Origin: Lachnospiraceae bacterium
GTDB lineage: Bacteria; Bacillota; Clostridia; Lachnospirales; Lachnospiraceae
Reading direction: 5' to 3'
DNA: 64,000 nucleotides
Assembly (NCBI GenBank): GCA_017634065.1
Contig: JAGBOC010000030.1
Coordinates: 1 to 64,000 of the forward strand
Shown here: one piece after another, positions 32,615 through 62,783 of the stretch
Position numbering within the stretch: position 1 is the first letter of the stretch
How the letters are laid out: every line of letters begins with the position of its first letter
Program-made: the position numbers and the translations under genes
The notes under the pieces: model-generated
The model's database searches: none
Told to the model about the DNA's origin: nothing
The model's input: only the letters and a program-made list of their open reading frames with translations

Positions 32615-32647
32615 AATAAAAAATATCGCCCTTCAAAAGGGCGATAT
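32615..32647 (-). terminator. Terminator of the redox operon
   Basis: On the minus strand an 11-bp stem ATATCGCCCTT/AAGGGCGATAT with a TTG loop is followed by TTTTT. It sits 22 bp after the thioredoxin stop codon and immediately before the MATE start codon. Confidence 0.95.
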
Positions 32648-32669: not shown

Positions 32670-32975
32670 TTATTTAAGCATCGCAAGTATGTTTTCTTTT
32701 GAATCTACACCAACTAATTGATTTACAACTTTACCTTCTTTTAGTGCGAAGAGTGCTGGAATTGATGATACTTTATATTCCATCGCGAGATCCATATTAT
32801 CGTCGACATTTACAGTTGCAAACTTTATATCCGCATTTTCTTCTGCAAGTTCTTTTATGCTTGGCCCAAGCATTGAACACGCACCTCACCAAGAAGCCCA
32901 GAACTCCAGGATAACTGGCTTGTCAGATTTTAGAACTTCATTTTCATAGTTGTCTTTTGTAATTGCTACTTCCAT
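32670..32975 (-). CDS. trxA: Selenocysteine thioredoxin (UGA read as Sec)
   Basis: From ATG 32975, with GGAGG upstream, the frame reads MEVAITKDNYENEV, continues to FWASW, then TGA at codon 30 (32888-32886), then GACSMLGPSIKELAEE and a full thioredoxin tail to TAA. In ordinary thioredoxins W-A-x-W is followed by the redox CxxC; here the first cysteine codon is TGA and the resolving cysteine C33 is kept, giving U-G-A-C. Read through, the protein is 101 residues, normal thioredoxin length, with the cis-proline segment SSIPALFALKEG. A hairpin stands at the right distance for a bacterial SECIS. Taken as a stop the gene would be a useless 29-codon stub. Selenothioredoxins are known in some anaerobes. 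It is the last gene after the metallo-hydrolase and FTR. Decoding needs SelA/B/C/D, not in this window. Confidence 0.87.
32857..32873 (-). promoter_or_regulatory. Candidate bacterial SECIS hairpin
   Basis: On the minus strand, 12 nt after the TGA codon, ATGCTTGG-G-CCAAGCAT forms a perfect palindrome, most likely a 7-bp stem with a GGC loop. The loop begins 19 nt after the TGA and starts with G. Known bacterial SECIS elements have an apical loop 16-37 nt after UGA with a G in its first two positions. The hairpin also encodes sensible residues (SMLGPSI), so it does not disturb the fold. Confidence 0.75.
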
Positions 32976-33032
32976 AATACCTCCTTCTGGTGGACATAAG
33001 AGTGCACCAATTTACTTTGTGTTTTTTTTATC

Positions 33033-33230
33033 TTATTTCTCTTTGTGATAAAGTTTGCAGTGACAATAACCTTCAAACTCTGGATCAGCAACTTGATCTC
33101 TAAACTCTTTACACATGCACATAGTGTCATCTGTCATCTCAAGTCTGCATGGACAGTGACCATTTCTTTTTGCTAACCCTTCTCTTATTTTTTCTACTAT
33201 CTCTTTGTTTTCGTTAAAAGATAACTTCAT
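33033..33230 (-). CDS. Ferredoxin-thioredoxin reductase catalytic subunit
   Basis: This 65-residue protein carries the three cysteine pairs of the FTR catalytic chain: CPC (26-28), CMC (38-40) and CHC (56-58). In the known enzyme these hold a 4Fe-4S cluster next to a redox disulfide, so electrons from ferredoxin reduce a thioredoxin disulfide. Plant FTR-beta is about 110 residues; short forms such as this occur in anaerobes. It overlaps the metallo-hydrolase gene by 17 bp and lies 57 bp before the selenothioredoxin, its obvious partner. GGAGAAG precedes the ATG. No FTR variable (alpha) chain is visible. Confidence 0.88.
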   Translation of the reverse strand: MKLSFNENKEIVEKIREGLAKRNGHCPCRLEMTDDTMCMCKEFRDQVADPEFEGYCHCKLYHKEK

Positions 33231-61345: not shown

Positions 61346-61936
61346 TTATATGAGTTTTTTAATAGCATTAAGAAAGTGTTCGCAAAAAGTAAAGTATTCT
61401 CTCTTAAACTTATCATCATCTATGTAATGAAGGTTAATAGAAATGTTTTCCCAAGCCCCTTCTGCTGATACACAAAGTAATTTCTTTGCCACCATCAAAT
61501 CAGATTTCGCAGATTGGTTTGATTTGCCAGCTATGCTACTTGTTATTTCCAGTCCTTTTAATACATTTTCCATCATTTCTCTTGGAACCTGACAGCAAAC
61601 TTTACATGCCTCTTGCATTTTTTCTTTTCTCTTTTTCTTCTCATCTTCTGTTACATTTGGCATAGCAAAAACTTTTTCCATTATCTCAAATGTTTCTGCA
61701 TCTTTATCCATTAACTCTAAAAACTTCTTTTTCAAGCTTTCAGCATCATTTTTTACTTTTATAACAAGTTCTTCATACTCTTTATATTTTTCTTTTCCTA
61801 TGGTGAGATTGCAAACCATAAGTGTGAGGCTTATGCCACTTGCTGCAGTAAGCGATGATGCAACACCACCACCCGGCATAGAACTACTACTGCTTAACTT
61901 TTCTAAAAAATCTTCTATTTTGTCATCTTTATACAT
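61346..61936 (-). CDS. Formiminotetrahydrofolate cyclodeaminase family protein
   Basis: This 196-residue protein carries the cyclodeaminase/cyclohydrolase fold (FTCD_C): DFLEKLSSSSSMPGGGVASSL, the conserved PGGG loop, and long helices. The family converts 5-formiminotetrahydrofolate to methenyl-THF with release of ammonia; free-standing forms occur in folate-dependent anaerobes. GAGGAATTAAG precedes the ATG. It shares a direction with the WYL gene and one-carbon metabolism with glyA, though they are 7 kb apart. Confidence 0.85.
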   Translation of the reverse strand: MYKDDKIEDFLEKLSSSSSMPGGGVASSLTAASGISLTLMVCNLTIGKEKYKEYEELVIKVKNDAESLKKKFLELMDKDAETFEIMEKVFAMPNVTEDEKKKRKEKMQEACKVCCQVPREMMENVLKGLEITSSIAGKSNQSAKSDLMVAKKLLCVSAEGAWENISINLHYIDDDKFKREYFTFCEHFLNAIKKLI

Positions 61937-62009
61937 CTTAATTCCTCATTTACTAAACATTTCTACTATATCATATATTTTCTATGCCACTATAAAACTA
62001 TTTTTTTTA

Positions 62010-62783
62010 CTACATACTTGTATATCCGCCATCAACTGGAAGGCATACACCTGTCACATATGTTGACATAGGAGATGAAAGGAATATTGCTGCAGTGTCA
62101 AGTTCTCCTTCATTTCCATATCTTTCAAGTGGTATCATTGTTTTTGCATTTGCTTGGAAGAAATCACTATCAAGAGTTTCTTTTGTAAGTGGTGAATAAA
62201 AATACCCAGGACAAATTGCATTTACATTTATATTATATTTTCCCCACTCTGCTGCAAGACCTCTTGTCATATTTACCACACCACCTTTTGCCGCATGATA
62301 AGGTGAACATGGTGCAACTTTATTTCCCACAAGTCCATACATAGATGCAATGTTTATTATCCTTCCATATTTCTTTGGAATCATTGCTTGTTTTGCAACT
62401 TCTCTTGCCATTCTAAATGCACCGAACAAATCAATATTTAACTCATTATAAAACTGCTCATCAGTAATGTCTTCTGCTGGTGCAACTGCTCCTGTACCTG
62501 CATTATTTATTAAAATATCAATTCTACCAAACTTGTCCATAACTGTCTTCACTGCTTCTTTTACTTTGCTTGTATCAGTTATGTCACAAGTTACACCAAT
62601 AGCATCTACACCAAAATCTTTCCTAATATTCTCTGCTACTTCTTCTACAAGATTTTGTCTTCTAGCAAGAGCTACTATATTACATCCTTGATTTGCAAGA
62701 GCCTTCGCCATCTGAACTCCAAGCCCCGTAGATGCTCCTGTAACAACTGCCACATTACCTTTTAAATCAAAATAATTTTTCAT
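62010..62783 (-). CDS. SDR-family oxidoreductase (gluconate 5-dehydrogenase type)
   Basis: This 257-residue short-chain dehydrogenase has the Rossmann motif TGASTGLGVQMA, NNAG, the catalytic IASMYG serine region and YHAAKGG (Tyr/Lys). The C-terminal CLPVDGGYTSM is typical. It is closest in pattern to gluconate 5-dehydrogenase/KduD-like proteins. AGGAG precedes ATG 62783. The substrate remains unknown and no sugar acid operon surrounds it. Confidence 0.88.
   Translation of the reverse strand: MKNYFDLKGNVAVVTGASTGLGVQMAKALANQGCNIVALARRQNLVEEVAENIRKDFGVDAIGVTCDITDTSKVKEAVKTVMDKFGRIDILINNAGTGAVAPAEDITDEQFYNELNIDLFGAFRMAREVAKQAMIPKKYGRIINIASMYGLVGNKVAPCSPYHAAKGGVVNMTRGLAAEWGKYNINVNAICPGYFYSPLTKETLDSDFFQANAKTMIPLERYGNEGELDTAAIFLSSPMSTYVTGVCLPVDGGYTSM

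Follow-up and report, generated by a model that had tools for sequence, protein, structure and literature searches.

A thioredoxin gene interrupted by an in-frame TGA codon

The window analysed here, i.e. the whole stretch of 64,000 nucleotides, carries on its minus strand a thioredoxin gene of 101 codons plus a TAA stop (32670..32975; start ATG at 32975..32973, stop at 32672..32670). Codon 30 of this gene is a TGA (32886..32888, minus strand). The initial annotation, in which no strand was given, had described an otherwise normal 101-residue thioredoxin with a strong ribosome site, in which an in-frame TGA takes the place of the first active-site cysteine (FWASW-TGA-GAC), and our analysis confirmed each of these points. 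When the TGA is translated as selenocysteine (Sec, U), the product of 101 residues reads MEVAITKDNYENEVLKSDKPVILEFWASW-U-GACSML... and has the active site W-U-G-A-C. With Cys placed at the Sec position, it matches PF00085 with 97.3 bits (cut-off 23.5) and the thioredoxin model TIGR01068 with 103.1 bits (cut-off 96.8). A ribosome-binding site, AGGAGG, can be read directly 4 nt 5' of the ATG (32980..32985, minus strand). Beyond the stop codon lies an intrinsic-terminator-like hairpin (32623..32647, minus strand) of 11 pairs, five of them G-C, followed by a run of T; two terminator-like sites were seen in the stretch versus 0.7 expected in shuffles. Rfam searches of the window at gathering scores found nothing.

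A mechanical ORF listing yields just a 67-residue piece of the thioredoxin gene (32670..32873), i.e. a core redox gene is reduced to a fragment. For the mechanical list, this agrees with the expectation that a standard annotation would give only this truncated product. We also scanned the window for frames that are read through a TGA, with at least 25 codons before and at least 40 after it and not mostly inside a longer ORF. This returned the thioredoxin gene and one further frame. The latter (61443..62066, plus strand), with 49 codons before the TGA and 157 after it, looks non-coding by eye.

The upstream neighbour of the thioredoxin gene encodes a cysteine-rich protein of 65 amino acids (33033..33230, minus strand) with CPC, CMC and CHC motifs. 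It is 91% identical in L016 and 89% in L137, two related loci in both of which it adjoins the thioredoxin gene. Its match to PF02943 (E 0.0018, 18.7 bits) lies below the cut-off of 22, and the protein is possibly a divergent relative of the ferredoxin:thioredoxin reductase catalytic chain. A search of the PDB gave no strong match: the hits were weak and to unrelated proteins, the best of them with E 0.17. From the neighbourhood one may guess that it is a partner of the thioredoxin.

Conservation of the TGA codon and of the reading frame

All 12 genomes of the genus contain a thioredoxin match, and in four of them one TGA lies inside the match: the window's own genome, G200 (81% protein identity), G210 (76%) and G203 (69%). 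The genes of G200 and G210 are the sequences of L015 (Lachnospiraceae bacterium UBA3633) and L016 (uncultured Clostridia bacterium SRR10912540_bin.12), respectively. Four further genomes, G202, G205, G201 and G204, have the Cys codon TGT at codon 30 (63 to 54% identity), and the last four have more distant matches with no internal stop. The comparison of homologues that had been proposed as a check thus aligns codon 30 with TGA in three relatives and with Cys in four.

Over the six pairwise comparisons of Sec copies, dN was 0.03–0.21 versus a dS of 0.64 to saturated ahead of the TGA, and 0.14–0.26 versus 0.96 to saturated past it. With dN lower than dS by about threefold or more on each side, both sides of the TGA are under purifying selection in one frame. 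Among the matches listed for a family sample of 200 genomes (194 with a match) and an order sample of 392 genomes (371 with a match), there were no TGA rows outside the genus. The exact pattern F.A.W-UGA-G[AP]C, which is strict, occurred in one of 398 phylum genomes, the window's own.

Genes for selenocysteine insertion

The genome from which the window derives (1.61 Mb, 33 contigs, 87.23% complete) possesses a tRNA-Sec with the anticodon TCA (L012:14944-15033; Infernal 50.1 bits, gathering score 47), which forms one cluster with selA (L012:15155-16546) and then selB (L012:16677-18632). SelA matches TIGR00474 with 591.9 bits (cut-off 267.9) and SelB matches TIGR00475 with 341.6 bits (cut-off 242.25). 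SelD (TIGR00476, 358.8 bits, cut-off 125) is encoded on a separate contig. The initial annotation had made its reading depend on the presence of selA, selB, selC and selD, and all four are found in the genome. The selD gene (L133, G000:C9:597-1511, minus strand) is, in turn, a selenoprotein gene: it contains one in-frame TGA (SCSGGUAAK).

In the three other genomes with a Sec thioredoxin, a tRNA-Sec above the gathering score is likewise accompanied by an adjacent selA. Among the four Cys relatives, the same holds for G201, G202 and G205; their retention of Cys is therefore not explained by a lack of these genes. The fourth Cys relative, G204 (95% complete), has a grdA with a TGA and no tRNA-Sec above the gathering score. 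Since the TGA-bearing grdA is present, the tRNA-Sec may have been missed by the search; either this is so, or the case is unusual.

A conserved hairpin 3' of the TGA codon

Just 3' of the UGA, the mRNA is predicted to form a SECIS element. A perfect 8-bp palindrome had been noticed 12 nt past the TGA, and ATGCTTGG-G-CCAAGCAT is indeed present there, but its arms cannot all pair. The actual hairpin is therefore one of 7 bp (AUGCUUG/CAAGCAU) with a 3-nt loop, GGC (32857..32873, minus strand). It is important to note that this arrangement, a 7-bp/3-nt hairpin that starts 12 nt past the UGA and has its loop at 19 nt, is common to all four Sec copies, with 28 of 28 cells of the upper stem paired. 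The loops read GGC in the window and AGC, CGC and CGC in the relatives, i.e. the second base is a constant G and the first is variable. Together with a lower helix, the whole predicted element spans 32844..32883 (minus strand; MFE -13.4 kcal/mol over a 49-nt stretch). The lower helix, in which 78.1% of the cells are paired over the four Sec sequences, is weakly supported.

In the Sec copy L136, two pairs of the upper stem are changed on both sides (U-A to C-G and G-C to A-U) and one has become G-U. Since just four Sec sequences entered the analysis, the covariation of the upper stem comes from this one divergent row. Within the whole 15-pair structure four pairs are changed on both sides, which was reached by 3 of 500 shuffles, the rows being few and related; slid controls gave 0 or 1 such changes. 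A comparable hairpin at the homologous place is absent from all four Cys orthologues. The nearest hairpin of a Cys copy, that of L139, has -1.0 kcal/mol and lies at 29 nt. The 49-nt stretch of L139 folds to -12.2 kcal/mol via another hairpin, so that Sec and Cys copies cannot be told apart by stretch energy alone.

According to PMC13188914, the bSECIS model allows an upper stem of 4-16 bp, a loop of 3-9 nt with a G in the first two loop positions, a distance of 16-37 nt from the UGA and an MFE of at most -7.5 kcal/mol. The Sec hairpins (7 bp, 3 nt, 19 nt) lie within the stem, loop, guanosine and spacing limits given there, and the view that the spacing is typical of a bacterial SECIS holds, with the loop at 19 nt inside the 16-37 nt range. 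At 3 nt (NGC), the loop has the minimum length that the model allows. The 49-nt stretches of the four Sec copies fold to -13.4, -11.5, -10.4 and -11.6 kcal/mol and the hairpin alone to -5.8 to -6.0 kcal/mol.

Single-sequence folding gave weak z-scores for the four Sec sequences (-1.52, -1.07, -0.67 and -0.03). The predicted minimum-energy fold of L136 is a different structure, the mean probability of the upper stem being 0.04; for L016 it is 0.33. When the window gene was recoded synonymously 5000 times, 196 of the versions had an equally good hairpin; the corresponding counts for the three relatives were 44, 44 and 265 of 5000. By itself, the window hairpin is only mildly unusual against chance. 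The case for a SECIS element thus owes its weight to conservation, covariation and the sel genes, and not to any single sequence. In the hairpin codons (5 to 6 sites), the Sec copies show little synonymous change; so do the Cys copies, albeit less markedly.

Selenocysteine as the probable reading of the TGA codon

We are highly confident that the gene encodes a thioredoxin with selenocysteine as the first active-site residue. This reading of the TGA, put forward in the initial annotation, is strongly supported by the sel genes, the conserved TGA, the coding constraint and the conserved, covarying hairpin. As the draft genome is incomplete (87.23%, 33 contigs) and only one base lies between TGA and a Cys codon, one might instead assume a sequencing or assembly error in an ordinary Cys thioredoxin, or a pseudogene with a premature stop. 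However, three further genus genomes share this TGA, at protein identities of 81, 76 and 69% and with the frame intact after it, the region past the TGA is under purifying selection, and the hairpin is conserved. Because the TGA recurs in these relatives, the sequencing error that resequencing was to expose is very unlikely, and the explanation by error or pseudogene as a whole retains but a slight probability.

The frame that stays open through the TGA would fit any reassignment, so that the UGA could also be decoded as another amino acid, via a reassigned code or near-cognate readthrough. Against this, TGA terminates 3 of the 42 non-overlapping mechanical ORFs of at least 150 amino acids in the window, and the scan of the window gave no second convincing read-through frame. 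Furthermore, the codon stands at a catalytic Cys position in a genome in which tRNA-Sec, selA, selB and selD are present. We regard such decoding as even less probable than an error. Just as improbable is translation in two parts, as a peptide of 29 residues and a C-terminal fragment of 67 that starts from the internal ATG at 32873. This ATG was picked by the ORF list and is present in three Sec copies (window, L015 and L016), but not in the fourth, L136. Furthermore, the fragment would lack the active-site positions 30 and 33, and purifying selection acts in a single frame before and after the TGA.

On the Sec reading, which we favour, the ribosome would reach the UGA at codon 30, SelB carrying Sec-tRNA(Sec) would bind the mRNA hairpin just 3' of it, and Sec would be inserted to give the 101-residue protein with the W-U-G-A-C active site. 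The reaction would begin with an attack of the selenolate on a substrate disulfide, and Cys33 would then resolve the mixed selenosulfide so formed; these roles of an attacking selenolate and a resolving Cys are established thioredoxin chemistry. The oxidised form would probably be re-reduced by the NADPH thioredoxin reductase of the genome, possibly also via the cysteine-rich neighbour. A thioredoxin reductase match is located at C20:5759-6655 (343.6 bits), barely above the cut-off of 343.45. Sec insertion itself, the redox role and the reductant are thus what we infer from the sequences.

The existence of selenothioredoxins, on which the initial annotation had relied, is documented: PMC13188914 names thioredoxin (PF00085, motif UxxC) as one of the experimentally verified selenoproteins of prokaryotes, with reference to Kim et al. 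2015. The window gene resembles the Sec thioredoxin described there in that it belongs to PF00085, has Sec at the first active-site position and occurs in a bacterium with Sec genes. Its motif, UGAC, is a variant within the UxxC pattern of that family. Since Sec thioredoxins have already been published, the window gene adds a well-supported example with a motif variant and not a new protein type. A literature search for Sec thioredoxins in Lachnospiraceae gave none among the matches listed.

A probable Cys-to-Sec switch within the genus

A tree was built from 50 thioredoxin rows (49 of them different; 42 from loci fitting a W-C motif pattern). In it, the four Sec copies group as a single clade (support 100/96), and its sister is the Cys copy L137 (95/90). 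A single Sec clade among Cys thioredoxins fits one Cys-to-Sec switch in the genus. From this phylogenetic perspective, a single origin of the Sec form within the genus, from a Cys thioredoxin, is most likely.

The gene order DegV, metallo-hydrolase, cysteine-rich 65-aa protein, thioredoxin and MATE is the same for the window copy, L016 and L137. L136 has kept DegV and MATE as neighbours, and at L015 none of the eight tested neighbours is present. The Cys thioredoxin L137, from G202, is like the window copy in that it occupies the same locus (63% identity), but has TGT at codon 30, a CGPC motif and no SECIS-like hairpin. The genus thus offers a Cys/Sec switch with one syntenic Cys relative, and Cys relatives with tRNA-Sec and selA as a natural control. 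This lets one ask what is gained from Sec in a general thioredoxin and what changes alongside it, such as the motif proline and the hairpin.

The UGAC motif and other thioredoxins of the Sec genomes

All four Sec copies have the motif W-U-G-A-C, i.e. they depart from the usual CGPC (or UGPC) active site by an Ala in place of Pro. The 46 Cys rows of the tree, which were chosen by a pattern that leaves the third motif position free, comprise 44 with CGPC and two with CMPC. UGAC is consistent with the UxxC given for published Sec thioredoxins in PMC13188914. We considered whether the change from Pro to Ala is forced by the lower stem of the SECIS element, in which the GCN of Ala32 would pair with the GCN of Ala44. 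When CCN was put in place of GCN, the outcome over the four stretches was mixed, and the idea is not supported in general. For the window, the probability of the upper stem fell from 0.97 to 0.03, and in L015 the two lower pairs were almost gone. In L016 and L136 the probability of the upper stem rose, from 0.33 to 0.79 and from 0.04 to 0.60, respectively.

For three of the four genomes (the window's, G200 and G210), the Sec copy is the sole near-full-length PF00085 match. The other matches in these genomes are partial and lie in open frames of 191-206 and 850-964 amino acids. G210 is 98% and G200 79% complete; as G200 and the window genome are incomplete, the absence of another full-length thioredoxin from these two is provisional. 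The frame of about 200 amino acids in the window genome has a CPPC motif and a lipoprotein-signal-like N-terminus, and for these two features it looks like an exported TlpA-type protein. In our estimate there is an even chance that some members of the genus have turned their housekeeping cytoplasmic thioredoxin into a selenoprotein and possess no full-length Cys copy in addition. The thioredoxin-dependent redox chemistry of these bacteria would then depend on selenium, and the switch would have been accompanied by a change from CGPC to UGAC, either as an adaptation to Sec redox chemistry or as a protein change that the SECIS RNA imposed.

The Sec copy is probably not a thioredoxin of glycine reductase. 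GrdA (PF04723) is matched in three of the 12 genus genomes (G203, G204 and G205), and the window's genome, G200 and G210 gave no match. The match in G205 is a 117-base piece at a contig end. The three genomes with grdA carry a second, separate thioredoxin match in an open frame of 109-110 amino acids on the grdA contig. It has the motif GCVPC in G203, where the thioredoxin measures 105 amino acids and adjoins a thioredoxin-reductase-like ORF, and in G204. This separate copy speaks against a glycine reductase role of the Sec thioredoxin, as does the lack of grdA in the window genome. The grdA matches L180 (G204:C53:33396-33836) and L181 (G203:C47:9694-10134) contain one TGA each.

UGA-containing thioredoxin frames on viral contigs

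A search of viral contigs (IMG/VR) with the pattern F.A.W-TGA-G[AP]C yielded 31 stretches (L184-L214), all of which show a thioredoxin-like UGPC frame by eye; their motif thus contrasts with the UGAC of the window gene. Thirty look alike by eye, some being identical, and L209 is different. A hairpin with a loop starting 22 nt past the TGA, often ttgagc-AGGT-gctcaa, is seen in 30 of the 31, and two (L206 and L209) fold less stably than -7.5 kcal/mol. No tRNA-Sec was found on the viral-contig stretches examined, and a literature search on phage selenoproteins gave none on phages among the matches listed. One viral thioredoxin used as a query (P0002) matches annotated phage thioredoxins, and all 73 matching GenBank phage records are less than 60% identical to it. 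We regard the viral frames as candidate phage-borne selenothioredoxins. In one example (L210:5055-5399, plus strand), neighbouring genes match the PHROGs single-strand DNA-binding protein, UvsX, exonuclease, DnaB-like helicase and ribonucleotide reductase, and perhaps the viral proteins serve ribonucleotide reductase.
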